Virus record (IMG/VR): IMGVR_UViG_3300009788_000013
Location: 1-61,153 of that record
Length of the DNA: 61,153 nucleotides
Strand: one strand, 5' to 3'
From: a virus
Shown here in pieces: positions 4,149 to 61,078 of this stretch (positions are counted from its first letter, which is position 1; every line of letters starts with the position of its first letter). The position numbers and the translations under genes are program-made. The notes beneath the pieces were generated by a model that saw only the letters and a list, made by a program, of their open reading frames with translations, ran no database searches and was not told the origin of the DNA.

Positions 4149-4757
4149 TCACATCCTCCTCACATATATCGCATTCTCTCCAGCAATCCACCCCTGGCCA
4201 TATCCCTTGTCCCCCATGAATTGGCCCAGCTCTACCACGCGCTTGCCGTTATGCTCGACTACAATAGCCTTGGACTGAATAGCTCCAGATTCCCACGGCA
4301 TTCGCAATAGGATGTCTACGCTCAACCCTTCGGCGTCAATACTGATCAGGTCGAAGCCTCCACCAAACTGAAGGAATATCTGCTCAACTGTCATCGTATG
4401 GACAAAGCAGTCCTGATATTGCCCCCGTGATTTCCATGTCTCGTAATGTTCTTCGTCCATCGTGGAAACTTGATCTGGCGAATGATGGAACGGAACAAGT
4501 GCACATTCACACCCAACGGCACAATTGATTATTTTTAATCGTGCTTTCTGCTCTGGGGTGAGCTTAGCAATATTACGGAGTAGGCCAGCGAATGGAACTG
4601 CGGCTGGCTCGATCATGATGCCACTCCAGCCATACTCCAGTGTCCACCAGACATTTGAGTTCGTCTTGCCATCGAATGATCCAATATCCAGGAACCGTCC
4701 TGGGGTATCACCGAAGATCGTTTTCAGATATTCATCTTCTCCGCGCTGACTATACAT
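4149..4757 (-). CDS. FkbM-family SAM-dependent methyltransferase
   Basis: This 202-residue protein has the FkbM methyltransferase signature. After MYSQRGEDEYL comes FLDIGSFDGKTNS (SAM motif I), then GWSGIMIEP (motif II acidic end), and later FDLISIDAEGLSVDIL, the family's hallmark DxEG segment. FkbM enzymes O-methylate sugars or small molecules, so here it probably caps a glycan. I start at ATG 4757, which has AAGG six bases upstream; the ORF extends 17 codons further without support. It follows the first membrane protein of TU6. Confidence 0.85.
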   Translation of the reverse strand: MYSQRGEDEYLKTIFGDTPGRFLDIGSFDGKTNSNVWWTLEYGWSGIMIEPAAVPFAGLLRNIAKLTPEQKARLKIINCAVGCECALVPFHHSPDQVSTMDEEHYETWKSRGQYQDCFVHTMTVEQIFLQFGGGFDLISIDAEGLSVDILLRMPWESGAIQSKAIVVEHNGKRVVELGQFMGDKGYGQGWIAGENAIYVRRM

Positions 4758-4770
4758 TTTTACCTTATTC

Positions 4771-4830
4771 CTATGTAGTTTCTGCAAGCCGCAACCAAAG
4801 CTCTTCACGGATCAATGTAGAGATGCTCAT
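4771..4830 (-). CDS. 19-aa micro-ORF
   Basis: ATG 4830 overlaps the TGA of the upstream membrane protein gene (ATGA) and opens 19 codons (MSISTLIREELW and onward) ending in TAG, 14 bases before the FkbM ATG. It may serve to hand ribosomes on to the FkbM gene, or it may be chance. The only support is its exact overlap. Confidence 0.3.
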   Translation of the reverse strand: MSISTLIREELWLRLAETT

Positions 4831-5146: not shown

Positions 5147-5908
5147 TTATATGGCGCAGATTCCCATGTTCTTGCTCAAGGGATGCCGTTGCAGCGATCC
5201 TCGGGCCATCTTGGCATGCTCCTCGTCTAGGATCTCATCAAGGGGCCGGATCGGCCAGCAGGGCAACGCGGAACCAGGCGAGCAGTTCACCACCTCCACC
5301 CCAGCCTTTCGAAGCGGCTGGACTAGTGACCAGAACATCGGTATCCAGTACTTCACCCGTCTACTATAGCTCGCTATGGTTTCGCGACCGTGGCCAGAGT
5401 GCCAGTAGATTTGCCCACTATATCGCCCTCTAGTGTCCCTGATGTGCCCTTGATCATCCTGGTAGGTCATAGGTACTACCCGCATGTCGTAGCCCAGGAG
5501 CACGATTCTACAAGCCCCGAATAGATATGCTAGATTGATTGCCTGGTAACCGGAGTTCCCTCCGTGACACAATGTCCCCGGATCATGTGATAATCCGAGC
5601 TGAGTCCCCTGTCTCAGTGATCGGCAGCATTCCAGTTTCGGGTGTCCCATAGTGATCTGCCAGCCGAGAAAACAACGTCTCACCTCGGAGCGATGATCAT
5701 CCCACCACTTGGTATCCGAGAAATACAAAATATCGGCATTGTACAACAACCGATATGATGTATTGATGACGATCACCTTACCGAGGCGCGAAATGGCAAC
5801 CGTATCTATACCAGTAATAGAAGGCCCTCCTGCTAGAATAAAGCAGGTTTTATCCGTCCACATGCCACTAGGGACAGTCCACCAACGCTCCTTTGCCTGG
5901 GTTTTCAT
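5147..5908 (-). CDS. DUF115/MptE-like protein (glycan-associated), paralogue 1
   Basis: This 253-residue protein contains CFILAGGPSI, which resembles the nucleotide-binding start of the DUF115/6-hydroxymethylpterin pyrophosphokinase MptE-like fold. It continues with VIVINTSYRLL, a GNSGYQAINLA helix and IVLLGYDM. Members of this fold occur in phages and in flagellin glycosylation clusters. A paralogue lies at 7700-8413. Its ATG overlaps the TGA of the tail terminator gene (ATGA), so it is the last gene of the head operon and directly precedes the glycan operon. Confidence 0.6.
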   Translation of the reverse strand: MKTQAKERWWTVPSGMWTDKTCFILAGGPSITGIDTVAISRLGKVIVINTSYRLLYNADILYFSDTKWWDDHRSEVRRCFLGWQITMGHPKLECCRSLRQGTQLGLSHDPGTLCHGGNSGYQAINLAYLFGACRIVLLGYDMRVVPMTYQDDQGHIRDTRGRYSGQIYWHSGHGRETIASYSRRVKYWIPMFWSLVQPLRKAGVEVVNCSPGSALPCWPIRPLDEILDEEHAKMARGSLQRHPLSKNMGICAI

Positions 5909-7699: not shown

Positions 7700-8413
7700 C
7701 TACGAACCTGCCATCTTCGGAAATGCATCGATAGCCGAAGCCACCGAAGCATTCACTACGGTTATACACCGATCTTCTAGAAAAGGCAAGGTAGTCTGGA
7801 ACAGCTGCGCCCAGCTTCTGTACATCTGCCGCTGCTCTGGATGCTCGGATGCGAATGCTCGCCCTGGTACTAGATCGTAGCCATACAGGGTGATGTGCTG
7901 CGCTCCCAATAGCACAGCTACATTCAGAGCGCCGTATCCCGAACAGCCTCCGATGCAGACTGTAGATGGATCAGCACTGAGCCCAGGCTCTCGTGATCGA
8001 TTGAGGTAGACGACTCCCGGCATATCCCAAAGATCAGCATGGCACTTCGGGATAGCTATATATTTCCGCCCAGTGAATTTACCGAGGAGTGAAAGGCGGG
8101 ATCTGATCCAGCGATGATCATGTGAATACAAAGCAGCGGCCCAGGGAACTTGTAGCACGGCGTCATTGATGGCCAATACTACCTGTCCCCTGAGCCGCTC
8201 AAAGTCAAAACTACAGAGCGATGGGCCGCTACCGACTATTACGCAGCGGCCCCATCGTTTTCGGTCTCCGGTAATACGGGATCGATTTTTTTCATCTTCC
8301 AGAGCCCGAAGAGATTGTTCTTCGGAAAGTGCTTCTTCGGCACTCGATCGCCAGGATGGAGAACTCGCACTCGACGCTTGCCTGACAGCTCCTGGTAGGA
8401 GATATCCTGACAT
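7700..8413 (-). CDS. DUF115/MptE-like protein, paralogue 2
   Basis: This ORF of up to 237 residues shares its order of motifs with the 5147-5908 protein: CVIVGSGPSL, VVLAINDAV, GGCSGYGALNVAVLLGA, ITLYGYDLV. The first 55 residues overlap the neighbouring gene and look non-domain-like, so the true start is probably nearer 8250, though no ATG or GTG is available there. The fold is that of MptE-like pyrophosphokinases and DUF115 glycan-linked proteins. It sits between capsid and connector genes. Confidence 0.55.
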   Translation of the reverse strand: MSGYLLPGAVRQASSASSPSWRSSAEEALSEEQSLRALEDEKNRSRITGDRKRWGRCVIVGSGPSLCSFDFERLRGQVVLAINDAVLQVPWAAALYSHDHRWIRSRLSLLGKFTGRKYIAIPKCHADLWDMPGVVYLNRSREPGLSADPSTVCIGGCSGYGALNVAVLLGAQHITLYGYDLVPGRAFASEHPEQRQMYRSWAQLFQTTLPFLEDRCITVVNASVASAIDAFPKMAGS

Positions 8414-12183: not shown

Positions 12184-13266
12184 TCAGAAGTTTCTCCCGA
12201 CCGGTCTTGGTGCTGCTCTCGATCTCGGGAAATGCAATACTAGCCCACAACGGCACATGACATGAATCGGTGGATGTTCAGCTACTGATTGCAGGCTAGT
12301 GAACTCCTCACCGAAAGCAACGATTGTGCCATGCAGCGGCCCACAGATTGGGCATACGCGCTCATCTCTAGCCGTTATCCAGCGGCGCTGCACTATCCGA
12401 GGATCGATCAATCCATCATCTATCGACTGCTGCCAAAGCTCATGCTGGCCGGCGTTGCTGGCGCGGATCGTTTCGGTTCTAGCAATCGCCTCAGATCGAT
12501 GCTTCAAGAAGCGCTCAAAATAGCGATCAGTCATCCTCTGGATCTGCTCTGGGGTAAAAGGTGTTCGATCAGCAATCAATCCGCCCTCCGAGATGTGCGC
12601 TCTCAATGTTGCGTCGAATCTCCGATCGCGGAGCTTGAACCTCATCGCTGTAGCAGCATCCCCATCAATTAGCGCCTGCTGGAATCTCCGAACTGCGGCT
12701 GTCTGGTGTTCCGTCAATCCGATGTGCTGCCTGATCTCGCGTGCAGCTACTCGCGGGTGCATCCCCTCCTCGAAAGCCCGGATCATCACATCACGGATAG
12801 ACTCCCGCGTACCGACGCTAATATCCCGGATCAGATCGAATTCATAATCTCGGAGAAACTGAACTGCCCGAGGATTTACCAAATCGAAGGTGATGTCTGC
12901 CTGAAGCCCTTTCGGCAGCTTCGACATCGCGGCTTTTGCGCCTGCCGCAAAAGTAGCCGTGACAGCCTCTCTAAGTGATTCCACCTCCGCAGGTAGTCCT
13001 ACCCCTTTGAACGCCTCGGCAAACGCCTCTGACAGCCGTAGGATGCGCTCAACGGCCATTGTGTCGCCAGTAAGGATCGCCTCCGATAGCTCTCTCATAC
13101 TGATGTTGCTTTTGATTGAAGCTATGGCTGCCTCAAACGCTGCGATGAATCTCGACTCCATCTTCCCAGCAGCAATCGAAACCGGATCTAGATCTGAATC
13201 CGTAATCCGAACTTTGAGGATGGGCGGATACCCCGGCATTGGTCGCCGCCTGATACGGCAAACCAT
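12184..13266 (-). CDS. MuF-like head morphogenesis protein
   Basis: This 360-residue protein ends in the classic MuF (SPP1 gp7/Mu F) domain: ARTETIRASNAGQ, a RRWITARDERVCPICGPLHG zinc motif, and HPPIHVMCRCGL with paired Cys near the C-terminus. The N-terminal two thirds are helical. I start at ATG 13266, with GGAG eight bases upstream, since the longer frame overlaps the neighbouring gene. MuF proteins are minor capsid components placed near the portal. Here ten genes separate it from the portal, which is unusual. Confidence 0.8.
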   Translation of the reverse strand: MVCRIRRRPMPGYPPILKVRITDSDLDPVSIAAGKMESRFIAAFEAAIASIKSNISMRELSEAILTGDTMAVERILRLSEAFAEAFKGVGLPAEVESLREAVTATFAAGAKAAMSKLPKGLQADITFDLVNPRAVQFLRDYEFDLIRDISVGTRESIRDVMIRAFEEGMHPRVAAREIRQHIGLTEHQTAAVRRFQQALIDGDAATAMRFKLRDRRFDATLRAHISEGGLIADRTPFTPEQIQRMTDRYFERFLKHRSEAIARTETIRASNAGQHELWQQSIDDGLIDPRIVQRRWITARDERVCPICGPLHGTIVAFGEEFTSLQSVAEHPPIHVMCRCGLVLHFPRSRAAPRPVGRNF

Positions 13267-13310
13267 CCGAGCCGCTCCGCCCCTGCGGGTTGAATTGATC
13301 AGCGGCAAAC

Positions 13311-13769
13311 CTACTCCGCTGCTGGCGGTGTCTCCTCGCCGGGGCCTGGCACCCATTCGGAATCGATTGCGATATCCCGATGGGCGGCAGATTGGAGATT
13401 GAGCAGATTGTCATAGCCTGCCGCGTTGTTCGAGATTCTCGACAACACCTTTTGTTGTTCGGACAACGTCGTCACCACCAGGTTGTTCAGTGCTGACAGA
13501 TGATTGTTTGCCTGATCGCGCTGCCGGGCGAGGGCTTCCGAGTGATCATCGAATCCTCGCTTCGTATTGAGGAACAAGACGCCTGATCGATCAGTCGTCT
13601 CTACCTGCATCCGCTCTCCGGTGAATGTTTCCTCTACCCGAGACTCGGTGCTTGAGACACCTGTTTGCTGACCCTGAGTCTGCAAGATTTTCTGAACTGC
13701 GCTAGTCGCAGCTTGAGTTGCGATCTGCTCAATTTCTTGAGCTGTTAATTTTCCTTCGACTGCTGCCAT
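13311..13769 (-). CDS. 152-aa virion-region protein
   Basis: This protein is 152 residues, soluble, helical and Gln/Ala-rich at the N-terminus (EIEQIATQAATSAVQKIL), with a middle helical segment (LSALNNLVVTTLSEQQKVL) and an acidic Pro-rich end. The pattern suggests a trimeric coiled-coil head or fibre component. No family recognised. Confidence 0.5.
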   Translation of the reverse strand: MAAVEGKLTAQEIEQIATQAATSAVQKILQTQGQQTGVSSTESRVEETFTGERMQVETTDRSGVLFLNTKRGFDDHSEALARQRDQANNHLSALNNLVVTTLSEQQKVLSRISNNAAGYDNLLNLQSAAHRDIAIDSEWVPGPGEETPPAAE

Positions 13770-13793
13770 TAGTTTAGTACTCCTTTTCCTTGT

Positions 13794-14087
13794 TTAGTTT
13801 ACTTGCCGCGTCCGAACCGTCACACTATCTTCCTGTGCTGCTATCAGTGCACCAACACCATCCCAACGATGCCGCCATAGTCCTGACTCGTCCATCGTGC
13901 GATCAACGTAAAAGATCCCGGTGGAGGCTTTGATCACATCCCCATCGACACCGAACTCCAGTGCTTCCTGATTTCCGCTAGGATCTTCGATCACGACCGT
14001 TATCGTAGTCGGATCAGCCAATGCCAAGTCAAGATCCCGGAATGTCACTTTGAATCTAACTCCATCGCCGATGTCGAATGTGGGCAT
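13794..14087 (-). CDS. 97-aa beta-sandwich-like virion protein
   Basis: This 97-residue protein resembles a single Ig-like domain: FDIGDGVRFKVTF, TITVVIEDPSGN, GIFYVDRTMDESGLWRHRW, and a final strand VTVRTRQV. The GxWxxRW pattern is common in small phage structural proteins involved in head decoration. It overlaps the upstream TGA by a base. Confidence 0.5.
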   Translation of the reverse strand: MPTFDIGDGVRFKVTFRDLDLALADPTTITVVIEDPSGNQEALEFGVDGDVIKASTGIFYVDRTMDESGLWRHRWDGVGALIAAQEDSVTVRTRQVN

Positions 14088-14311
14088 TACGGTTGCTCCT
14101 CTAATGTCGCTGTTGCCGATTCCGTCATGAGCGTTGCGGTTCCTGTCTCTGCCACTAGCGTAGCTGATCCTGTTTCTGTTAGCAAAACGGCAGTTGCTAT
14201 TGAGGTGCTAAGGATTAGCAGCGGTGCCAGTTCCTCCAGGGTCGCCGTCCCCGGTACAGCACTCCCCCAATCAATCGCATGGCTAAACCACTTGGCGGAT
14301 GCTCCTGGCAT
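14087..14311 (-). CDS. 74-aa protein with ATLxxETG repeats
   Basis: The second half is a tandem array of short Thr/Ala/Leu-rich units: TETGSATL, AETGTATL, TESATATL, about eight residues each. It forms a regular beta-like or fibrous stretch. The N-terminus (AKWFSHAIDWGSAVPGTA) looks like a small attachment region. Probably a short fibre or spacer of the virion; this is inference. Confidence 0.45.
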   Translation of the reverse strand: MPGASAKWFSHAIDWGSAVPGTATLEELAPLLILSTSIATAVLLTETGSATLVAETGTATLMTESATATLEEQP

Positions 14312-14314
14312 TGA

Positions 14315-15412
14315 TCATCTCGCAAACGGGATTACACCGACTCCGATAATATCTTTCACGACCGCTCCACCTACTGCCGGTACATGATCAACCATCACCC
14401 AATGCTCATAGCAAAAAAATTCCCGCCCTCCAGCATTCCTCCATGCACCAGCCTGAAAGTTATCTATCTCACTCTGATTCGTTGGTACGGTGCTAGGATT
14501 AAATGTTTTGTACCGAGAAGTTCCGTCTAGCGCCAGATCGGCGCTATTCTCTGAGGTCGAAACTTTCGCACGTAGCCGATGCTCTGTCCCGCTTCCATTC
14601 CCTCTAGCAGCTTGGCAAGATACCGTGACAAGGTTAATAGTGCCAACGTTCGGAATTGAAGTAAGCCCCCACAGCTGCTGATGGTTGGCATCTACCTGGG
14701 AACTCTCTATCGCATATTCTGTTTCGTCAATCGGATCTTGGTTGACTGCACTGAATGTCTCCGCATTCGCCGCCTCATCTTCGAATTCATCTTCTCCGCT
14801 ATCACCAGAGTCCTCATCAGCTCGCTGAGCATCAATCTGTCCAGCTCCTAAAAATGTGAATACATCCTTTGCAAATATGTCATCAAACCAAATGTTTTCT
14901 GCTCCGTTGGCGTTGTCCATTTTGAGTTCATCAGGTTGTTGACCAGCACCCCCATTCGTTACATCAGCAGTAGTTCCTCCGTCTACTCTACAGTGGATTT
15001 CACCATTGCTTCCTCCTCCTGAAGGATCTTTTTTGACTGTTACTTCTATGAGGTGCCATTCATCTTTTGATACTGATGATTCAACTTGTGTCCAATCCGT
15101 TCCATCATTATTTGTAATTAGGATTTCAAAATTATTAGTATCTACATGTTTAATTCCGACAGCTCCAGTAGATTGACCAGTATCAGATCTGACATCAGAA
15201 ATCTTTTCCTCTGTTGATCCAACTGTTCCGTTAACTCGTACATAATAACGGACTGATACTTCATCTGCTGCAAAGATTGCGAGAGGAGAGAAACAGTTGC
15301 CTGTGCACTTTAAAGCATAATTCCCTGTCCGCTTTGTAGTGCTGTCAACTGATCCTGTAGCAGTGATAAACTCACCGAGGTTCCCAGATTCAATTCCAGC
15401 TAGCCAGGCCAT
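14315..15412 (-). CDS. 365-aa concanavalin-like virion protein
   Basis: The N-terminal 190 residues have the strand and Asp/Trp pattern of LamG/concanavalin A-like lectins: VRYYVRVNG, NFEILITNNDG, DEWHLIEVTVKK, IWFDDIFA. An acidic linker (about residues 195-215, DEDSGDSGEDEFEDE) leads to a second beta domain with FCYEHWVMVD. It may bind carbohydrate on the host or support the head. The region coding for the first domain is visibly richer in A+T than its neighbours, suggesting transfer. Confidence 0.55.
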   Translation of the reverse strand: MAWLAGIESGNLGEFITATGSVDSTTKRTGNYALKCTGNCFSPLAIFAADEVSVRYYVRVNGTVGSTEEKISDVRSDTGQSTGAVGIKHVDTNNFEILITNNDGTDWTQVESSVSKDEWHLIEVTVKKDPSGGGSNGEIHCRVDGGTTADVTNGGAGQQPDELKMDNANGAENIWFDDIFAKDVFTFLGAGQIDAQRADEDSGDSGEDEFEDEAANAETFSAVNQDPIDETEYAIESSQVDANHQQLWGLTSIPNVGTINLVTVSCQAARGNGSGTEHRLRAKVSTSENSADLALDGTSRYKTFNPSTVPTNQSEIDNFQAGAWRNAGGREFFCYEHWVMVDHVPAVGGAVVKDIIGVGVIPFAR

Positions 15413-15413
15413 G

Positions 15414-15938
15414 CTAATCTAGCCACCACTGCGCCCCAGGCGAGACATCGCTCAAACGCATCAGGTAATCCTGTACTGCCGGGCTGGGATCGTAAAGTCC
15501 ATCATTCCGATAGCGGAAGATCTTAGCGTTAACGAAAAAATTCCGTAGAGTGATTGTCTGGCCGAAATCCGGATCAGTAGGATCAGTAATAGATTGCTCG
15601 TTCTTATAGATGTTCTCCAGTGCAGCGTCGAGAGCATCCTGGAGCTTCTCAGCGCGAGCCTCTGGATTCCCTGTCTGTGTTGGGAATGCACTCCTATGGA
15701 TTGCTAGATGAGGAGTGCTCTGGCCACTGCCGCTAACAAAGATCCCAATCAATGGCCAACCGTGGATGGCAACCAGATCAGTAATTAGCTCTCTAGCCGT
15801 TTTACCAGTATCAACATCAGTGAACGGATCAATCTCAGTTACACCGCGAAGGCGAAAATGAAGCGGGTTTCCATCTGGCGCAAGAGCATCGAACTCTGAC
15901 TGTTTCAGTGTCAAAAATATCCCTGTTGTTGATGGCAT
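15414..15938 (-). CDS. 174-aa virion-region protein
   Basis: From ATG 15938 (MPSTTGIFLTLKQ), with GAGAG eight bases upstream, this protein has FRLRGVTEIDPFTD, HGWPLIGIFVSGS and FFVNAKIFRYRNDGLYD segments. The sequence looks globular and mixed alpha/beta with no family recognised. Its location between two beta-rich virion proteins suggests a structural role. Confidence 0.5.
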   Translation of the reverse strand: MPSTTGIFLTLKQSEFDALAPDGNPLHFRLRGVTEIDPFTDVDTGKTARELITDLVAIHGWPLIGIFVSGSGQSTPHLAIHRSAFPTQTGNPEARAEKLQDALDAALENIYKNEQSITDPTDPDFGQTITLRNFFVNAKIFRYRNDGLYDPSPAVQDYLMRLSDVSPGAQWWLD

Positions 15939-15942
15939 GTTT

Positions 15943-16488
15943 TTAGCTCTCAATTGTAAAGTAGGATACTACTACGTCAATTGATCCAGTGGTAGGCACT
16001 TCGCTCGTTATTCGGAGATCCTCATCGTCAGCGCCTACGCCGAGCATACCGCTGCCGTCCCCCTCTACCACGCCAGAGCCCGGCGCTATCCCAGGATGTG
16101 AGAGCACAACTCCAGTAGTAGTCGGCGTCGTCGCGGTAGCGAATCCTATCCGTACCTGCACATCTACCGTATTCGCATTATCGGCCATCACCGAGCAGCG
16201 AGTAACCACAATCTTCAGGCCAGCGGCAACAGTTACAACAGCGGCATTCGTTTGGGCACCGGTGTAATTAGCCCGCACGGTTACAATGTTGGGGTGCCCC
16301 CCGATGACAAAAGGCACCCCTGCTCGATTAGTATATAAATCAGTAACGTCTGCTGCGGCTACAGCAGTCGGATTCGTGCCATGAGCAATCGCCTTTCCAC
16401 CGATCTTTACCGGAAAGTTAGCATCAGGCCCATCATGGGCCACGCTGCCTTCGACATTGGGGGCCGGATCTTGTGATTGATCAGCCAT
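15943..16488 (-). CDS. 181-aa beta-rich virion protein
   Basis: The protein is Gly/Ala/Val-rich with a short N-terminal extension (DGPDANFPVKIGGKA) common in phage decoration proteins. It continues with VTVRANYT, LKIVVTRCSVMADNA, and a final strand pair ending SIDVVVSYFTIES. It resembles a trimeric beta-barrel head-fibre or decoration protein. Neighbours of similar composition support a common structural role. Confidence 0.55.
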   Translation of the reverse strand: MADQSQDPAPNVEGSVAHDGPDANFPVKIGGKAIAHGTNPTAVAAADVTDLYTNRAGVPFVIGGHPNIVTVRANYTGAQTNAAVVTVAAGLKIVVTRCSVMADNANTVDVQVRIGFATATTPTTTGVVLSHPGIAPGSGVVEGDGSGMLGVGADDEDLRITSEVPTTGSIDVVVSYFTIES

Positions 16489-16489
16489 C

Positions 16490-17641
16490 CTAGTCCTCGG
16501 CGTAGATCACAGCATGGACATCAGCAGCCAGTACTCCGAGATTCTTGAACTTTACGCGAAAGGCATCCAAGCCCGCTGCCGCCCCTAGCGTGATGAAGTT
16601 ACGATGAGGTGCCTTGAAGAAGAAACCCTGTCCTGCCTGCCCGCCGAAGATGCCTTTAATACCAGACTCGACGGCATCGTCTACGGTATAGATTGCGGCC
16701 TTCCACCGCTGTGAGCACCAGCACCATATACCGCTAAGTTTCTTGTTTGCGGCTTCTGAGCCGGTCAGATCAACCTCAGCGTCTACCGCCAACGCGGCGG
16801 AGGTTAACGCCTCTGTCGTTGGGCTCGTTGGAGTGTCAACACCACCACCAGTAAGAACATCGATCTGCAAGTGACCGGCGTCATCGACCTCGGCCCGATT
16901 CCAGTTTGTGTTACCACTATCCCAACCCATCAAAAATGCGCCGACCGCTGGAACAGTTGGATTAGCCACGTCATCAGCAAGAGCCGCAGCTGCCGGTAGT
17001 TCTGTGTCCACAGAGCCGGTAATACTGACATCATTATTAGTGCCGAGGTTAACGAGTAGGCCATCTGTGGCATCCCCTAGAGCCCTATCCCAAGTCGCTC
17101 CATCCCAGGCCATCATGAACGCTCCGACACCGGGGGCCGTGGGGTTGGCGAAATTGTCTGCCAGTGCTGCCGCCAATGGGAAATTGTTGTCGTGAGTCCA
17201 TAGAGCACCGTTGGCATCAACGAACATATTCACGACATCAGCCGCAGCAGGAGTCAAGGCGCTCAACACATCGTCGCGGACTGCCAGAGACAGCACGCCT
17301 GTATCGGTTCCCCCGATCGGCGTATCGATTGCCTTGCCTAAGTTCGTAGCACCAACACCAGGGATCACCGATGTCACATCGACATCCCCGATATCAATCC
17401 CCGAATTCGCCGCCAGCGTGAATGAGCCATCATCGGTGACTGTCACCGTCGAGGCGGAAACGTCTAGTGCGCTCTGATCCGAAGCGATCACCACTGGTAT
17501 TGATAGAGCCATCGTTGTCTGGGCCTTCGCTTCCGCCGAAGTTCCGGCGGCGCTGATCCTCAGACTAACTCCGAGAACGTACTCCGTTCCGCCACCTGTG
17601 TCTAGATCAAATGGTAGTAGTTGACTTGGTACATCAGCCAT
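16490..17641 (-). CDS. 383-aa repeat-containing virion protein
   Basis: It contains two copies of an approximately 55-residue unit (LAAALADNFANPTAPGVGAF and AAALADDVANPTVPAVGAF, each followed by a Trp-Asp segment) and an early Ser/Thr-rich beta region. The C-terminus (AFRVKFKNLGVLAADVHAV) is homologous to the C-terminus of the 18194-18754 protein. Such repeats are typical of fibres and spikes. It probably projects from the head or tail connector. Confidence 0.55.
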   Translation of the reverse strand: MADVPSQLLPFDLDTGGGTEYVLGVSLRISAAGTSAEAKAQTTMALSIPVVIASDQSALDVSASTVTVTDDGSFTLAANSGIDIGDVDVTSVIPGVGATNLGKAIDTPIGGTDTGVLSLAVRDDVLSALTPAAADVVNMFVDANGALWTHDNNFPLAAALADNFANPTAPGVGAFMMAWDGATWDRALGDATDGLLVNLGTNNDVSITGSVDTELPAAAALADDVANPTVPAVGAFLMGWDSGNTNWNRAEVDDAGHLQIDVLTGGGVDTPTSPTTEALTSAALAVDAEVDLTGSEAANKKLSGIWCWCSQRWKAAIYTVDDAVESGIKGIFGGQAGQGFFFKAPHRNFITLGAAAGLDAFRVKFKNLGVLAADVHAVIYAED

Positions 17642-17873
17642 CGCTAGATCCTCCCTTCATTGTTGCAATCTCTTTGCCTATCAGCGCGATCCTCTCTGCG
17701 TTCACAGCCACCTGTTCTCGCTGTCGTAAGATCTCGACTTCCATCTCATCTGCTCGTAGTAAGGCGATCGCGCTCTGATACTCCAGGTTCTTGATCTCTA
17801 GCTCCTTGCGCCTGATATGCAGTGCCTTCGTTCGATGATCGGAAACCTTTCCGCCTTCTGACGCATCACCCAT
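17634..17873 (-). CDS. 79-aa coiled-coil protein
   Basis: From ATG 17873 (MGDASEGGKVSDHRTK) the protein is one long charged helix (RRKELEIKNLEYQSAIALL and onward) with heptad-like hydrophobics. The ATG shares an A with the TAA of the upstream gene (TAATG). It may assemble with the adjacent structural proteins. Confidence 0.55.
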   Translation of the reverse strand: MGDASEGGKVSDHRTKALHIRRKELEIKNLEYQSAIALLRADEMEVEILRQREQVAVNAERIALIGKEIATMKGGSSDG

Positions 17874-18193
17874 TAATTCACCTGCTTTACGGCCTGCCGT
17901 TGCTGTTGGCGCGTATAGAGCGTCCCCGTCTTCGGATCGATGTCCAGTACAGAGTCCTGATCGATCTTGTATTTCAACTTGATGCCTCGTGTCCACAATA
18001 CCAGTGCATCCCGAGCAGTCGCATGTTGGATCATCCGAACCTTATAATCCAGCAGCTCATCCGCTGTCAGCGTTGCTCCCACGGGTGGAGGCATCTCTGC
18101 AACTTCCTTATTCGAAGCAAAGATGAACTGAGTGCTGGGCTTCTTTCGAGTTCCAGTGGCTTTTTTCGCCGGTACCTTTTTCACTGTTGCCAC
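17873..18193 (-). CDS. 106-aa hypothetical protein
   Basis: The N-terminus is Lys/Ala-rich (VKKVPAKKATGTRKK), flexible and DNA- or capsid-binding in type. It is followed by a helical middle (ADELLDYKVRMIQHATARDALVLW) and an Arg/Gln-rich tail. It starts directly after the stop of the upstream gene. No family recognised. Confidence 0.5.
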   Translation of the reverse strand: MATVKKVPAKKATGTRKKPSTQFIFASNKEVAEMPPPVGATLTADELLDYKVRMIQHATARDALVLWTRGIKLKYKIDQDSVLDIDPKTGTLYTRQQQRQAVKQVN

Positions 18194-18754
18194 TTATGTC
18201 ACCTCATCCCAGAATATCGTTGCATTCACATCCGCCGCTACGATCCACTGATTTGTCACTTTTACGCGGAAGTTCTCATCACCGCCAACATAGGCCAGTG
18301 TATCGTAGTATTTATCTGGTGGCACGTACTCGCCATCCGACCCTCCCGCATATCCACCTGTTCGAATCACACCGATAATAGTCTCTACTGCCCCATCGCG
18401 TTTGATGATTGACCAGCTACATGGGACTGAACTGGACACTTGTACCCGTTTCAGTTTCCCTGTCGCTCCCACTGCAATCGTAGCAGCATCTAGATCAACG
18501 CTCGCATCCGCCGCCAAACTAGCTGATACCCTGTAATTGGAAACCGGATTAACCGGCCCCAAGATTTTCACCACCAGCCCGTGATCAGTACCAGGCGTCG
18601 GATCAGTATCGGTGACTACCGCAATGTCATCAGCACCTACACCGGCAATCTGATCCCGTTCTCGTTGGACAGTATTAGCGCCTACCGTGAGCTGCTCTGT
18701 GTCGAGCTTCTTACCGACGCCATCAGTCGGCAGCTGGATAATTGAATTAGACAC
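18194..18754 (-). CDS. 186-aa beta-rich virion protein
   Basis: The N-terminus (GVGKKLDTEQLTVGANTVQRER) is a common start of phage head-decoration proteins. The middle has SASLAADASVDLDAATI, and the C-terminal domain ends ENFRVKVTNQWIVAADV, homologous to the C-terminus of the 383-aa protein at 16490-17641. The gene overlaps the end of the portal gene by eight bases. Probably part of a multi-protein head decoration. Confidence 0.55.
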   Translation of the reverse strand: MSNSIIQLPTDGVGKKLDTEQLTVGANTVQRERDQIAGVGADDIAVVTDTDPTPGTDHGLVVKILGPVNPVSNYRVSASLAADASVDLDAATIAVGATGKLKRVQVSSSVPCSWSIIKRDGAVETIIGVIRTGGYAGGSDGEYVPPDKYYDTLAYVGGDENFRVKVTNQWIVAADVNATIFWDEVT

Positions 18755-20093
18755 CCGGCTGCTCCTCTACCCGCTCAGGGAGTCGCATCCTGGCACGTAG
18801 GTGATTCTCTAGATTATCGTCTGGGAATATTGCTGCTCCCGATTGGGCAAGATTCTTGAGCGCCGCTGTCAGCCTCTCAATATCCTCACGTGCTACGCTC
18901 GCCGGTCGAATCCTCGGCAGGCCCGCTGCTGGATGCCAAGCATTAACGGCGAACAATCGAGGGACAGCATGGATGTTGATCACATCAGCTATCGACTCCA
19001 TCCACCCATCAAGAGACGCTTCAAATATCGATGTCTTGTCCGTAGACAGCGCTCTACTGCCAACCGACTCGTGTCCGAGTAGAATCCAGTCAGCAAGCAC
19101 CACGCCTGCGATAGCGCCGTTCTCACGGCGAATTACAACGGTCGTATCAAACTGCTTAGCACCTGGAGCTTTCACTAGCTCGAATTTATAGCTCGGCTCG
19201 TTCGAGTCCTCCTGAATATCAGAGGGTAGAACTATTCCCTCTTGATCATCACGGCGGATGTCTTTGATTATCCTCTTCCATTCAGCTAGCTCAGTCGCTT
19301 TCCCTGGAGCGTTCGAGTCAAACAGCTCCCCCGGAACTCTCAGCACCGGGTACCCTACTAGATCGCGCTCGATTCCGATAGCCTCAATTTCCCTAATGTG
19401 TTTCTTCGCATACCACGCGATGTATGCCCCTTCCAGCACCGATCGCCCCTCTGGGTTGTTCTTGTGGTGGCTGGTGTTGAACAGCAGCATATTCTCAATT
19501 GGGATCTGTACCAGCTGATTCGAGTTAGCATCCCTCTGCTCGACTCCATTCAATCCCCCTTCATCATCAAAGAGCCAGCGCTCTATCGTCTCAGCACTGC
19601 GAGGTGCAAACTTTCGCCAGCCAATCTTCCGATCAGTATGATTACTGCGCCGGGAGCCATCTGTTTCTTCAGGGCCGGATCTGAGCTTATAGACGATTTC
19701 GAATGTTTGAAATCCGAAAGTCAACATCCAGAGCACCTCCGATATGAAGGCAGTCCAGGTGTGCGACATATCGTCTTTGGCCGATTGGAGGAAGTCTGCC
19801 GCTTCAGTCGATTCTGGTGTCTCATCTACTGCCTCAACCACCCACTGCACCCGACGCATCATCATTTCGATCGCGTGCATAATCGAGGCTACGGTATCGT
19901 CGTAGAGCCTCATCTCACGATACGTTTCCCAGCGCCTAGTTTTTGAGCGTAGTTCACGGAGCGCCGTCTCATCAATCACTCCGAGATGATGTCGCAGCCC
20001 AGTGGATCCGATCTCAGCGGAGATACGTCCAGGTGCTGGAGGCACAGCTGGAGCTAATTTCTCGGTGAGCCATCGGCGAGCGGAATCTAGCAC
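18747..20093 (-). CDS. Portal protein (DUF935/Mu gp29-like)
   Basis: This 448-residue protein matches the DUF935 portal pattern: WETYREMRLYDDTVASIM near residue 60, TFGFQTFEIVYK (about 130), PIENMLLFNTSHHKNNPEGRSVL (about 210), LADWILLGHESVGSRAL (about 345) and a C-terminal helical region. Portals form the dodecameric DNA gate. The start is GTG 20093, about seven bases from a -10-like TACGAT with no Shine-Dalgarno, so it may be leaderless. It opens the late head operon TU5. Confidence 0.8.
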   Translation of the reverse strand: MLDSARRWLTEKLAPAVPPAPGRISAEIGSTGLRHHLGVIDETALRELRSKTRRWETYREMRLYDDTVASIMHAIEMMMRRVQWVVEAVDETPESTEAADFLQSAKDDMSHTWTAFISEVLWMLTFGFQTFEIVYKLRSGPEETDGSRRSNHTDRKIGWRKFAPRSAETIERWLFDDEGGLNGVEQRDANSNQLVQIPIENMLLFNTSHHKNNPEGRSVLEGAYIAWYAKKHIREIEAIGIERDLVGYPVLRVPGELFDSNAPGKATELAEWKRIIKDIRRDDQEGIVLPSDIQEDSNEPSYKFELVKAPGAKQFDTTVVIRRENGAIAGVVLADWILLGHESVGSRALSTDKTSIFEASLDGWMESIADVINIHAVPRLFAVNAWHPAAGLPRIRPASVAREDIERLTAALKNLAQSGAAIFPDDNLENHLRARMRLPERVEEQPGV

Positions 20094-27140: not shown

Positions 27141-27216
27141 TGGAGCGTGGAGGTTGGACTCGAACCACCATCCCCCGTCTGGAATAACGGGAATGCTACC
27201 CTTGCACCATCCACGC
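27141..27216 (-). tRNA. tRNA-Gly (UCC-like anticodon), atypical
   Basis: The minus strand folds as a tRNA with a perfect 7-bp acceptor stem (GCGTGGA/TCCACGC), D stem GTGC/GCAT around AAGGGTA, anticodon stem CCCGT/ACGGG, T loop TTCGAGT, discriminator T and encoded CCA. The discriminator and anticodon point to glycine. Two oddities are an eight-base anticodon loop (TATTCCAG) and one unpaired base in the T stem. It is co-directional with TU2 and lies between the methyltransferase and Mom-like genes. Confidence 0.65.
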
Positions 27217-45205: not shown

Positions 45206-47284
45206 TCATCCTTCGATGATTAAATCTAGCCAGCCATTCTTCGCTGTGCTATCTGTCGTCAGTGATTCAGCAGTGATCTTATCGCCACGCGCTACTTCCA
45301 GGTTATCGGTGACGAAAGTGAAGCCAACTATTATTCCAGTATCACCGGCTTCGTATACCGCTTTTGTCGCTGGGAAGATAGTCGTTCCATTCAGCTTGAT
45401 ATCAATCGAGATGTCAGCGGCAAATGGTGCACCGGTTTCCCACCCCATATGCCACTCACGAATCCAGCCCGACTCCTCAACCGTCCGAGCACCAGGAACA
45501 AGACGGGTTACCAGTCCAGGATTAGTTGAGCCATCAATGTCTTCCGCCAGCGCAATATGTATACTGAATCGATTACGAGGCACTGGTTGCCGATCCCTCT
45601 GGATCATCTCAGCCATGAATGTGTTGAGTGAATCTGGCTTTTGAAGCTGAGAGTTCGTGGCTTTGATTGTCCATTTCATGTACTTGCCCTTAACCATCGT
45701 ACCCCTCACGCTTTTCACCACCAATGTATCGTCTAGCAGCGGTTGAGATGTGTTGATCGTCAATAGCTGTCCAGGCCAGACTCCGCTGATGCGAGTCACT
45801 GCTGTGGCATCAATCGGATTGGTCTTCTTTCGCAGCAGTTCCCCGTCCCCTAATACCTTCATCTCATCGAAGCCTGCTAAGTCCTTGCCTTCGACTATCG
45901 CTTCCCAGAGCCCATCTGCCGCTATAGCAGCGGTATCCTCAGCGATATACACAAACTGTAGCGGGCTCGGATATATGATCTCAATTGTATCGCCTCCACC
46001 GAGAGGAGCATCAGCCAGGTTTTGGAATACCCCGGTCCCGCCCGAGATGTAATACCATTGCCACCCCGGAACGCTCCAGTCCCCGATCAGAACAACTATC
46101 TGCACTACAGAGTTGACTTTGACTATTGGCTTGACTACCTGGAAGTATGTTGTCGGAAAGGCGGTACCACTAGCAGGACCTGGGAACTCATCTCCCGCCC
46201 AACTGTCTATCCAAAGCCCCTTCATCGGCCTGGAGTTCTTGACGTAGATGCGATTAGCGCGGAGAGCCACATTACGCTCTACTGATAGCGATTCAAAATT
46301 TCCATCGTCATCGGTAAGAGTGAATGGGGCTGCCTCGAAGCCTGTACTCTTCGGAAAGACTTGGATCACCTTATCGTGGTCAACCCAAAAATCCGCATTG
46401 ATCATTCGCATCAATGTCCGAAAGGCTTCACTCACCTTCTGGGCATAGACTTCATACTCCCCGATCGTTCCACCAGCACTCCCACTGAGAATAACTGAGA
46501 GCCCCGTATCGTCACCCGAATCGCTACCCAGAAAATCACGAGTGATACTTGCTAACAGAATCGATGCCACCCCGCCTTGAAATGTCGTGTAGAATTTATG
46601 TCCCACCCTCCGTTCCATGTAGACGCCCCATCCTGCACAAGTGATATCAATCTCCATTGCCGTCTGGCCAGTATAGAATCGCTCAACTAATTTTGTGATT
46701 AGTCCACCAAAGATCCGAAGGTTGCTGTTATCGGTATCAATGATAATTACTTCCTCATCTTGTAATGGCCGCGTAGCTCCAGCCGGATCGAACCAAGCCA
46801 TCTTGCAAGATCCGAATGAGCCTGCCTCAAGAGAGATTGAGATTGGCTTACGTGATTTTAGAATGAAATCATTGCGAAGAATACCATTGATATAGATTCG
46901 ATAGATTGATCCAGGCGCATCCGGCAATGTTGCCAACACAAGTACTGGAGTGCCAAACGCCTCTCTGCTTATGATGCCAGATGGCCCGATGGCTCCACTG
47001 AAAGCAGGAGTACCAAACGCTTCAGCGCTAGCAATTCCTGTGGGGCTGATAACTTGTACATGGAGGAGGGTTGGAGATCCAAACGCTTCGGCGCTAGCAA
47101 TTGCTCCTGCTCCGGTGATCTCTAGATCTAACTGGGCTGTGCCAAATGCTTCAGCACTAGCAATTCCCGTGGCAGTAATTGTTTGTGTACCGCCACCAGA
47201 TCCACCAACGGTATTTTCTGCTGAAGCTGTCCACGCAGCACCAGTAATTCGTCTTCCGGACTGGGATGTTTTAGTGAAAGCCAC
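45206..47284 (-). CDS. Tail tip/hub-like protein with GIASAEAFG repeats
   Basis: The 692-residue protein opens with four copies of a roughly 24-residue unit carrying IASAEAFG (or IISREAFG; about residues 41-115). A hub-like domain follows (YRIYINGILRNDF; MEIDITCAGWGVYMERR; CAGWGVY typical of tail-hub proteins; TLMRMINADFWVDHDKVIQVF), then a C-terminal beta domain (IDIKLNGTTIFPATK). It probably forms part of the baseplate hub. The repeats are a known phage tail feature. Confidence 0.6.
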   Translation of the reverse strand: MAFTKTSQSGRRITGAAWTASAENTVGGSGGGTQTITATGIASAEAFGTAQLDLEITGAGAIASAEAFGSPTLLHVQVISPTGIASAEAFGTPAFSGAIGPSGIISREAFGTPVLVLATLPDAPGSIYRIYINGILRNDFILKSRKPISISLEAGSFGSCKMAWFDPAGATRPLQDEEVIIIDTDNSNLRIFGGLITKLVERFYTGQTAMEIDITCAGWGVYMERRVGHKFYTTFQGGVASILLASITRDFLGSDSGDDTGLSVILSGSAGGTIGEYEVYAQKVSEAFRTLMRMINADFWVDHDKVIQVFPKSTGFEAAPFTLTDDDGNFESLSVERNVALRANRIYVKNSRPMKGLWIDSWAGDEFPGPASGTAFPTTYFQVVKPIVKVNSVVQIVVLIGDWSVPGWQWYYISGGTGVFQNLADAPLGGGDTIEIIYPSPLQFVYIAEDTAAIAADGLWEAIVEGKDLAGFDEMKVLGDGELLRKKTNPIDATAVTRISGVWPGQLLTINTSQPLLDDTLVVKSVRGTMVKGKYMKWTIKATNSQLQKPDSLNTFMAEMIQRDRQPVPRNRFSIHIALAEDIDGSTNPGLVTRLVPGARTVEESGWIREWHMGWETGAPFAADISIDIKLNGTTIFPATKAVYEAGDTGIIVGFTFVTDNLEVARGDKITAESLTTDSTAKNGWLDLIIEG

Positions 47285-58779: not shown

Positions 58780-58955
58780 CAGATCAACTCCCAGCCAGCC
58801 CTTAGTAATATCCAGCAGACTTTCAATACTACCCCTGTGATCAACATTAATCCGCCCAATGAAGCGGCAATGACTACAATTGCAAAAATACAATTAAAGA
58901 AAACGACGAATGAATGCCCTTCACTGGACTTTACTTCCTGTTTAATGAGCTTCAT
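58779..58955 (-). CDS. 58-aa two-helix membrane protein
   Basis: ATG 58955 overlaps the TGA of the glycosyltransferase (ATGA) and opens a 58-residue protein with a hydrophobic core (FVVFFNCIFAIVVIAASLGG and LITGVVLKVCWILL), probably two short helices. Its TGA shares an A with the next ATG. It sits exactly between two glycosyltransferase genes. Confidence 0.6.
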   Translation of the reverse strand: MKLIKQEVKSSEGHSFVVFFNCIFAIVVIAASLGGLMLITGVVLKVCWILLRAGWELI

Positions 58956-59824
58956 GATTGACTCTTATCCCCTATCATTCCAAATAGATCCAGGCCCATA
59001 AAAGGCTCGCCCCCAAGTTCAGCTATTAGCCGGTGGATCTCTCGCTCGTGCCAAGTTTCACAGTCGTCACTGAAGTCCGCGTACTTCATCAGATGCCTAT
59101 ATGGCTCCCACCATGAGGCTGGTACAGTGTATAGGATCTTTTCCAAGCGGAACCACCAGCTATATTTCCGTCGGATCTTTTCCGCTCCCTGTTCTGGCCA
59201 CCTTACCAGCTCCATCATCTCGTAGTGCGCCTGTTTAGCTCGGAATGCCCGCTCTCGAATGAACTGCAAGTGCATGACACCAGCCGCTAGTCCAGTTGGA
59301 ACTTTACTCGGCTTTGATCCGAATGGATGCCGGTGATGGTGCTGATAGGTTCCTCTAGGCTGCCAGCTCAATCCCGATGAATCCCTAAACGCTAAACTGA
59401 ATGATGTATTCCGATGTTCACCATCAACCCGAATCTTGAATTGTGACTCCCATATATTATGCCCTGATACCTGAAGTACTTGACACGGGGTTAACTGTTC
59501 AATCACGGATCTGATACTGACTAAGAAATTACCGGTTAGGATTTCATCAGCATCCACTAGTGCAACATGAGTCGCTTTCTGTGCACGGCATTCGTCCAAT
59601 AGAAGCTGCCGGTGGTTCATCTCATCCCACGGGCCATCTCCGATTTCTATAGGCCATACGCGATCTGGATACTCGTCTAATATCTTGCCCACAATCTCAG
59701 GAGTCCTGTCCTCACAAGCATGTAGGCCAACTACGATTGAATCGCACCATATCAATGCAGCTCTAATAGTGAGTCCACAGATCCACTCCTCGTTTCGAAG
59801 GGGCATCAGAGCAACGAGTTTCAC
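58952..59824 (-). CDS. Family 2 glycosyltransferase
   Basis: The 290-residue protein has the GT2 fold: VALMPLRNEEWICGL (N-terminal nucleotide site), SIVVGLHACEDRTPEIV, THVALVDADEIL (DxD, about residue 95) and a C-terminal region with WQPRGTYQHHHRHPFG. It would transfer a sugar from a nucleotide donor to a growing glycan. ATG overlaps the TylF TGA. Confidence 0.8.
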   Translation of the reverse strand: MKLVALMPLRNEEWICGLTIRAALIWCDSIVVGLHACEDRTPEIVGKILDEYPDRVWPIEIGDGPWDEMNHRQLLLDECRAQKATHVALVDADEILTGNFLVSIRSVIEQLTPCQVLQVSGHNIWESQFKIRVDGEHRNTSFSLAFRDSSGLSWQPRGTYQHHHRHPFGSKPSKVPTGLAAGVMHLQFIRERAFRAKQAHYEMMELVRWPEQGAEKIRRKYSWWFRLEKILYTVPASWWEPYRHLMKYADFSDDCETWHEREIHRLIAELGGEPFMGLDLFGMIGDKSQS

Positions 59825-60426
59825 TTCTGCCCCCTCTGCCAGATCATCGGTGCTCGATCGTCCATTGATATCATCTCGTTAACAGCTCGGACACAACCAG
59901 GTAGGCTATCGTCTACCACACAGATGCCACCTGGAACGATCCGTGGATATAGATACTTCAGCACCAGCTTTGTTGATTCATAAAGATCGCAATCGATCCG
60001 AAGGAATGCGATATCAAACTTTCCAACTTCAGGCAGTGTTGTATGAAACCATCCCGGATGATAGCTGAAATGATGATCAGGGATCTGCCACTCCTTCATG
60101 TGCCCCTTAACCTGCTCAATTGTGCAAACTGATTCCCCTTCAATTATCAAACCACTAGGACCATCTTCGGGGCTGGCTTTAGGGATACCTTGGAATGAAT
60201 CAAACAATCGGATGATGCGGCGTGGCCTCTCGTCCTTATCTATACATGCCTGTGCCATGATAGCCGGATGGACACCAGCGAAAACGCCACACTCAACAAA
60301 GCACCCAGGCACACCGAAGTCAATGCAATGACATGAGAGACTGTAAGTCATCTGTAAAGTCGGTAATTTACATAATGCACGTTCACCGACTTTCTTGATC
60401 CAATACCTCGTTGTTTTTATCTTCAT
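59821..60426 (-). CDS. TylF/MycF-family O-methyltransferase
   Basis: The 201-residue protein from ATG 60426 (MKIKTTRYWIKKV) has the macrocin O-methyltransferase signature: GCFVECGVFAGVHPAIMAQ (SAM motif), RIIRLFDSFQGIP, IAFLRIDCDLYESTKLVLKYLYP (metal/SAM site DxD) and GGICVVDDS. TylF enzymes methylate sugar hydroxyls. With FkbM it makes two sugar methyltransferases in one operon. The ATG overlaps the stop of the 36-aa membrane protein. Confidence 0.85.
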   Translation of the reverse strand: MKIKTTRYWIKKVGERALCKLPTLQMTYSLSCHCIDFGVPGCFVECGVFAGVHPAIMAQACIDKDERPRRIIRLFDSFQGIPKASPEDGPSGLIIEGESVCTIEQVKGHMKEWQIPDHHFSYHPGWFHTTLPEVGKFDIAFLRIDCDLYESTKLVLKYLYPRIVPGGICVVDDSLPGCVRAVNEMISMDDRAPMIWQRGQK

Positions 60427-60533
60427 GATAATAAATAAACAAAATCTAAAATAATAATAGTCCCACAACTAGCAACGAACAAGACCCAGAGCGCCACCAA
60501 GAGCCAGCACAACACCATGTCTAGAGTACTCAT
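60423..60533 (-). CDS. 36-aa single-pass membrane protein
   Basis: ATG 60533 overlaps the sulfotransferase TGA (ATGA). The 36-residue product is almost entirely a hydrophobic helix (MVLCWLLVALWVLFVASCG and on). Its TGA overlaps the TylF ATG (ATGA), so it is translationally coupled on both sides. The coding sequence becomes very A/T-rich toward its end. Confidence 0.6.
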   Translation of the reverse strand: MSTLDMVLCWLLVALWVLFVASCGTIIILDFVYLLS

Positions 60534-61078
60534 GACAGTTTCTTATAACCGAATCTCAAGAAATCGGGGCCGCTGTGCGCTTCAATGATCCTGGCCCACC
60601 GTGGATGATCTCCAATGTCAGATTCCCACCGTGGGCGTCTCTCACTATTCATACGCTCACTAGGCCAGAGGATACCGGTTGTATTAAATGGCAGTAAGAG
60701 AACTTGTTCCGCGATCGCCTCATACCTCGCAAGGAAATCAATCCGCGCCTCCGCTAGAAAGGCAGATTGACTGTATCCACCCTCATCCCAATGATCCATG
60801 ACAAGCTCCATGAACCCAGGGAAACCTATATCTCTGATCCCACGTGTCTGATCATTGCGTCGTAAATGATACCAGCAGGAGAGCATCCTATCATAAGGAT
60901 TCCGTACAACTGTGAATGTAAATTTCCGTTGATGCTCTCCTGGAACAATGCGCTCATGATCCTTCCCGACTAGCTCTCCTCCGAACTGAGGTAGGAACTT
61001 CCGCGCCATCGTAGTACCGGCTGTACGTGGAACGTGGATAAAGACAAAGCTGGGGCCGATAGTCATTTCCCTACGCAT
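60530..61078 (-). CDS. PAPS-dependent sulfotransferase (Sulfotransfer_2-like)
   Basis: The 182-residue protein has both PAPS-binding signatures: FIHVPRTAGTT (5' phosphosulfate loop, residues 13-23, with Arg in place of the usual Lys) and FTVVRNPYDRMLSCWYH (3' phosphate site, about 54-70). This is the pattern of Golgi-type carbohydrate sulfotransferases found also in bacteria and phages. It would add sulfate to a glycan. ATG 61066 is an alternative start. An 11-codon mini-ORF (MTKLTLEISDA) overlaps its start and couples it to the upstream gene. Confidence 0.8.
   Translation of the reverse strand: MRREMTIGPSFVFIHVPRTAGTTMARKFLPQFGGELVGKDHERIVPGEHQRKFTFTVVRNPYDRMLSCWYHLRRNDQTRGIRDIGFPGFMELVMDHWDEGGYSQSAFLAEARIDFLARYEAIAEQVLLLPFNTTGILWPSERMNSERRPRWESDIGDHPRWARIIEAHSGPDFLRFGYKKLS

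Follow-up and report, generated by a model that had tools for sequence, protein, structure and literature searches.

Phage receptor-binding proteins usually have a constant N-terminus, serving for attachment, and a variable C-terminal tip. In the case of HFTV1, capsid turrets with a carbohydrate-binding domain were described, and its authors propose that they make the first, reversible contact with surface glycans (PMC12494034). In phage 7-7-1, flexible capsid fibres serve initial host contact, which is made with flagella (PMC12796354). In this work, we describe a ten-gene insert localized between the portal and MuF genes of the IMG/VR virus record IMGVR_UViG_3300009788_000013; the window analyzed covers that virus record in full, at 61,153 bases. 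Our proposal, for which we consider the chances about evenly balanced, is that the insert encodes a virion fibre together with interchangeable display proteins that dock through a C-terminal tag, likeliest on the head or neck, for attachment to the host surface.

The insert consists of the genes g1 (adjoining the portal gene) to g10, among which g1, g4, and g5 are putative fibre genes and g7 encodes a C-terminally tagged candidate display protein. The top Foldseek row for the predicted structure of g1 was the beta-sandwich turret chain of HFTV1; however, HFTV1 is an archaeal virus without a demonstrated sequence relation, and a C-terminal tag is not mentioned in the available part of PMC12494034. 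The fibre protein of phage 7-7-1 is not named in the available part of PMC12796354, and the likeness drawn here to the module of the window is in the capsid-fibre role. The trimeric cement proteins of phages KHP40 and KHP30 (PDB 7dou, 7dn2) resemble the predicted jelly-roll of g5, but they are of a single chain type, whereas g5 belongs to a fibre set that is encoded by several genes and contains repeat modules. In three Manatee Spring phage records (ctLwi270, ctMEh928, and ct7ZZ929) and in Aphanizomenon phage CL131, a g4-type repeat gene precedes a gene that is lectin-like or of another kind, and in ctLwi270 and ct7ZZ929 it is localized near portal or capsid genes, as in the window. Unlike the window, these four lack the g7-type tag, and three of them have other short endings (LLLGVGP in ctLwi270, LALLGVG in ctMEh928, and LMMTGCGT in ct7ZZ929). 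For CL131, which is cultured and has a related gene, a virion proteome of 23 proteins was published, the main text naming neither ORF025 nor ORF026 (PMC6293099).

The g7 protein terminates in VVKDIIGVGVIPFAR, and its final 15 residues are nearly identical to those of a protein of locus L039. In L037 and, in variant form, in G001 (the whole record of the contig of L027), proteins encoded close to g5 homologs have similar endings. The 16-residue tag consensus is [VL][KQ]D[IVLM]IGxGx[IV]PFxR-end, and in g7 it is represented by:

14318..14365, minus strand: C-terminal tag of g7, AVVKDIIGVGVIPFAR-stop; 14 viral C-termini have the same tag.

A degenerate DNA pattern including the stop codon, run on 2.9 million viral contigs, gave 15 stretches, 14 of which were true ends of open reading frames (ORFs), the one in L081 being the exception. 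The same pattern applied to 257 gigabases of bacterial and archaeal genomes found one stretch, which was not an ORF end, and hence no true match. Conservation extended to positions that the pattern had left free, with K or Q at −13 and V or L at −14 (each 14/14), and F was present at −3 in all 14 tagged ends, though the pattern permitted F or Y. The bodies preceding the tag are diversified: only two pairs of homologous bodies were found among the 14 full-length tagged proteins, the tagged ends are on at least 12 unrelated bodies, and Laminin_G_3 was matched in two of the ten that were scanned (L092 and L093). Used as a 24-residue query, the tag had no match in phages and a single one, resembling chance, in a plasmid, and no phage paper was found in the literature with the tag letter strings.

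The tag is linked to fibre genes. Starting from g1, g4, and g5, a fibre family of 63 proteins was assembled, which occurs in 53 loci besides the window. A gene of this family is localized one to three genes upstream of the tag in all 12 tag loci with readable upstream sequence (L085, which is incomplete, and L086, the near-identical contig, were left out). In the window, g7 lies two genes past g5, which is inside the four-gene span behind a fibre gene that was defined in this analysis. Over the loci as a whole, 14 of the 197 genes placed at most four positions downstream of a fibre gene bear the tag, versus 0 of 934 others; since selection of the loci had in part relied on the tag, only its position is informative in these counts. 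Among 15 loci selected by the portal, none (0/15) had fibre-family genes.

A constant C-terminal peptide on many unrelated bodies, invariably encoded close behind a jelly-roll-type fibre gene, fits the expected appearance of a docking tag. In the proposed arrangement, a self-contained virion-surface module would sit within the head operon, where g1, g4, and g5 would be short fibre or pedestal proteins with repeat modules besides an N-terminal anchor and a jelly-roll-like tip, and g7 a display protein docking by its last 16 residues onto the fibre tip or the capsid/neck. The fibre tip, as the constant that is inherited along with the tag, seems its likeliest partner, with the capsid or neck as the alternative. 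Varied bodies (Laminin-G-type, propeller-like, and other beta proteins) would plug onto one holder in different phages, and g2, g3, g6, g8, g9, and g10 may be accessory or assembly parts. We infer that the products are present in the virion, where a head/neck module would make the first reversible contact with sugars of the host surface, and the tail tip would then engage. More specifically, the conserved tag may allow many unrelated binding domains of tailed phages to be mounted on one shared jelly-roll fibre at the head/neck, binding being changed by whole-protein swap and not by exchange of fibre tips, an idea that we hold tentatively, at somewhat less than an even chance. The tagged proteins invert the usual layout of receptor-binding proteins, as the extreme C-terminus is constant and the body variable. 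If the docking tag is true, it would provide a sequence handle for adhesive head/neck proteins of uncultured phages, which mostly lack a family match, as well as a way of testing how these phages alter binding.

Two other endings, defined after examples had been seen and therefore treated as leads only, may represent further tag classes. The LLLGVG type was found in 7 of 197 genes downstream of a fibre gene versus 0 of 934 others, and the GxPxGLLLxLT type in 4 of 96 genes just upstream of a fibre gene and in none elsewhere. A general C-terminal regular expression was dropped in favour of the specific tag, as it was barely enriched (21/543 near vs. 5/304 far). Genes with the two endings include:

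L019:13801-14592, L036:1674-3965, L051:10492-11718, L050:616-1200, and L020:12593-13852: LLLGVG-type endings beside fibre-family genes.
L023:3273-3662, L034:8532-9182, L041:9311-9751, and L092:1084-1350: GxPxGLLLxLT-type endings, gene just upstream of a fibre gene.

Ten minus-strand ORFs fill positions 13311-18754 between a Mu-type portal gene, the PF06074 match of which is above the cut-off, and a MuF-type gene, so that the portal/MuF adjacency of the Mu-type portal/MuF head module is broken in the window by ten intervening genes, as was claimed by a sequence-only reading of this DNA. As neighbouring genes mostly overlap or are separated by at most 3 bp (spacing from −11 to +3 bp, with two exceptions, namely 24 bp ahead of g10 and an overlap, −46 bp, at the annotated MuF start), the insert is read as a single operon. 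Downstream of MuF there are the usual further head genes, namely a protease-like and a 357-amino acid (aa) gene along with those for a phrog_673-type small head protein and for the major capsid protein. The insert and its borders are as follows:

18747..20093, minus strand: Mu-type portal protein, left insert border; PF06074 E-value 5.7e-32, phrog_113 E-value 2.1e-69.
18194..18754, minus strand: g1, 186 aa; anchor-like N-terminal motif QLPxDGxGKKL (residues 1-57) and beta-sandwich C-terminal domain (67-185), AlphaFold2 model.
17873..18193, minus strand: g2, 106 aa, charged; L027 has a weak homolog in the matching position (score 55, shuffle maximum 41).
17634..17873, minus strand: g3, 79 aa, coiled-coil-like; TAATG start; weak L027 counterpart (score 53, shuffle maximum 58).
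16490..17641, minus strand: g4, 383 aa, modular fibre protein; module 76-161, repeats 157-217 and 218-277, C-terminal domain 271-383 as in g1.
15943..16488, minus strand: g5, 181 aa; PVKIGGKA module (11-63) and 8-strand beta-sandwich (69-180), AlphaFold2 model.
15414..15953, minus strand: g6, 179 aa, no assigned function; match in the near-identical contig only.
14315..15412, minus strand: g7, 365 aa, candidate display protein, C-terminally tagged; residues 238-365 similar to the L039 protein (E-value 6.4e-8).
14087..14311, minus strand: g8, 74 aa, short ATL..ETG repeats; N-terminal AKWFxHxxxWG as in a 69-aa gene of the contig of L027 (score 51, shuffle maximum 39).
13794..14087, minus strand: g9, 97 aa, probable Ig-like/beta protein; phrog_18294 (function not assigned) E-value 7e-4, sub-threshold PF01835 E-value 0.046.
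13311..13769, minus strand: g10, 152 aa, helical by reading; no match in family and homolog searches.
12184..13356, minus strand: MuF-type head protein, right insert border; phrog_3517 E-value 3e-66.

The portal scan of viral contigs indicated 16 loci, to which four isolate or clone records were added, and the portal-MuF distance was compared across 22 loci with a portal match. In the near-identical contig L001, the same insert is present and the gap is 5,391 bp, and in 12/12 other loci with a detectable MuF nothing intervenes, its match starting at most 387 bp from the portal stop (several of these 12 contigs are close to one another), which agrees with the claim of the sequence-only reading that the two genes normally adjoin. 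In the remaining 9 of the 22 loci, a MuF match was absent or the locus ended. Among the portal relatives compared, only the near-identical contig shares the ten-gene portal-MuF insert, which is confined to this lineage. As L080 (MT835491) has the same head order without the insert, it can be used as an empty-site comparison.

None of the g1-g10 proteins had a curated family match above the cut-off in known-family libraries, and tblastn against isolate phages found no relatives of g1, g5, g7, g9, or g10. The same search with g4 matched 183 records, in short repeats only, 181 of them being Salinibacter phages. A scan of bacterial genomes with g5 gave 596 pattern matches, none of which was confirmed, hence the host was not found, and scans with g6 and g7 matched solely the near-identical contig. 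The QLPxDGxGKKL motif of g1 is common to L058 and L073-L075, the PVKIGGKA module of g5 is present in many viral loci, and the module near residues 76-161 of g4 is widespread. Homologs of g5 are 57% identical in L027 and 68% in L034, and that of g1 in L027 is 33% identical. The g3 gene probably starts at the TAATG at 17873, giving 79 aa.

Several sequence features named in the earlier reading were confirmed with changes. A C-terminal domain is indeed shared by two genes, g1 and g4 (alignment score 124; 500 shuffles: mean 40.5, maximum 67), although its motif has to be corrected to FRVKxxN..[IV][VL]AADV. The repeat of g4 is present (score 121, shuffle maximum 55) as two copies 61, not 55, residues apart, and the ATL..ETG repeat of g8 is real but short, with about three copies. 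The description of most genes as beta-rich suits, by reading, g1, g4, g5, g7, g9, and perhaps g8, but not g2, g3, and g10, which are charged or helical. The suggestion of a lectin, g7, found no confirmation: tested as a Concanavalin A-like lectin by sequence, it gave no Pfam match at an E-value of 1 and no meaningful PDB match (one row at E-value 0.31 in the solved-structure search).

AlphaFold2 models were built from 10 sequences for g5 and nine for g1, with a mean predicted local distance difference test score (pLDDT) of 65.5 and 66.1, respectively. Both show a multi-stranded sandwich in the C-terminal half, where the pLDDT is 54 to 88 in most ten-residue blocks (about 40 in the g1 loop 131-150), the other parts being weak. 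With this moderate-confidence model, g5 matched the KHP40 phage cement (Foldseek E-value 9.2e-5; Z-score 8.9 over 109 residues at 3.1 Å) and the STIV turret (Z-score 9.3), and g1 matched the HFTV1 turret (Z-score 9.6; Foldseek E-value 1.2e-3). When predicted viral proteins were searched with g5 by Foldseek, most of the matches were unnamed, and absence of a family from the structure-match lists should not be taken as evidence of absence. The g1 and g5 products are predicted to be beta-sandwich/jelly-roll proteins; as their matches include unrelated sandwiches, they support the fold type, not the function.

As to location, homologs of g1, g2, g4, and g5 occur in the contig of L027 in the same order as in the window, together with the weak g3 counterpart and, later, the 69-aa gene with the g8-like start; the positional partner of g9 is dissimilar (score 26, shuffle mean 27.6). 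The same cassette thus has different operon surroundings in two siphoviruses, as for a module that moves. In L027, it is placed past the tape measure and tail hub, ahead of an amidase-like gene (some labels by reading), and this position of the syntenic g1-g5 argues for a tail-fibre or tail-tip module that was relocated into the head operon and whose products still assemble on the tail, which we regard as rather unlikely. Fibre-family genes past the tape measure or hub are also present in L025, L045, L047, L048, and L062, making 6 of the 53 loci. However, the family is beside or among terminase, portal, capsid, or scaffold genes, before the tail, in 15 loci and a few genes ahead of the tape measure in two, so that 17 loci have it before the tail module (near-duplicates by coordinates are L064/L065 and L047/L048); two loci with the genes upstream of the terminase are ambiguous, and 27 have no landmark. 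One further locus, L087, was set aside, since its "Hub" label rests on repeats. In L019, L026, and L039, the fibre gene is directly behind the portal, as in the window. Moreover, the insert of the window, unlike the cassette of L027, does not follow the tape measure or hub, and the window has a separate tail-tip region past the tape measure, one 329-aa protein of which gave a tail-fibre-like match. Judging by the genomic position of the family, the head or neck is the likelier site. The idea of virion decoration or head fibres put forward in the sequence-only reading is well sustained as far as a fibre or decoration module is concerned, by domains, predicted folds, and recurring location, while for a head/neck site the position of the family is favourable and L027 contradicts it.

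It should be stressed that L027, the sole relative with the full g1-g5 order, is not the only point weighing against our proposal of a tag-docked head or neck fibre. The G001 ending is a variant with one additional residue, g5 had led to two of the 12 tag loci (L037 and L039) beforehand, and there is relatedness among some tag loci (e.g., the bodies of L088 and L094). The AlphaFold2 models are moderate, being based on shallow alignments, their beta-sandwich matches are unspecific, and one structure-match list for g1 was headed by unrelated proteins. Finally, g7 has no recognised fold, and its lectin identity is unsupported.

The resemblance of the g5 model to KHP40 and KHP30 cement and to Pam1 capsid chains would also fit plain cement or decoration proteins stabilising the shell without host binding, but we find this improbable, as the phrog_673-type small head protein is already encoded beside the capsid gene, and ten genes with repeat modules and variable tagged bodies are ill-suited to a simple cement. 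A further reading, in which the products are internal or ejected cargo accompanying MuF, similar to what seems to lie between MuF and the protease in the portal relatives (in L002-L007 and L009, additional tagged domains are fused to MuF or follow it), is very improbable, since the NPYHDExGRF motif was not found in the window proteins, which read as beta surface proteins, not enzymes. In those relatives, a NPYHDERGRFTS-type motif is recurrent in MuF extensions and in genes behind MuF (L002-L007 and L009; e.g., L006:3404-8522 and L003:15594-18525), adjoining, by reading, metallopeptidase-like (HEIGHH) and ADP-ribosyltransferase-like stretches, and it may mark packaged or ejected proteins.

The suggestion of the sequence-only reading that these products are a target of a glycan system is backed by circumstantial findings only. 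Two phrog_4603 genes (named alpha-2,3-sialyltransferase; 5147-5908 and 7700-8413) are localized in the window among head-tail adaptor-like genes, and FkbM-type and TylF-type methyltransferases and a sulfotransferase match are found at the ends of the record (58952-61078 and 4149-4808), with a weak glycosyltransferase-2-like match at 58952-59824. Near six of the 12 tag loci (L039, L087, L088, L089, L093, and L094), glycosyltransferase, methyltransferase, or sub-threshold sulfotransferase matches were found, these proteins having been picked by eye and without a control.

Elsewhere in the window, a hub-side protein (45206-47284) has repeated [SA]xEAFGxPxL units, and similar DAFGAP repeats are present in L087:6997-7611, beside a tagged gene. 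ARAGORN indicated a tRNA with an ambiguous anticodon at 27141-27216, within a predicted protein-coding region.

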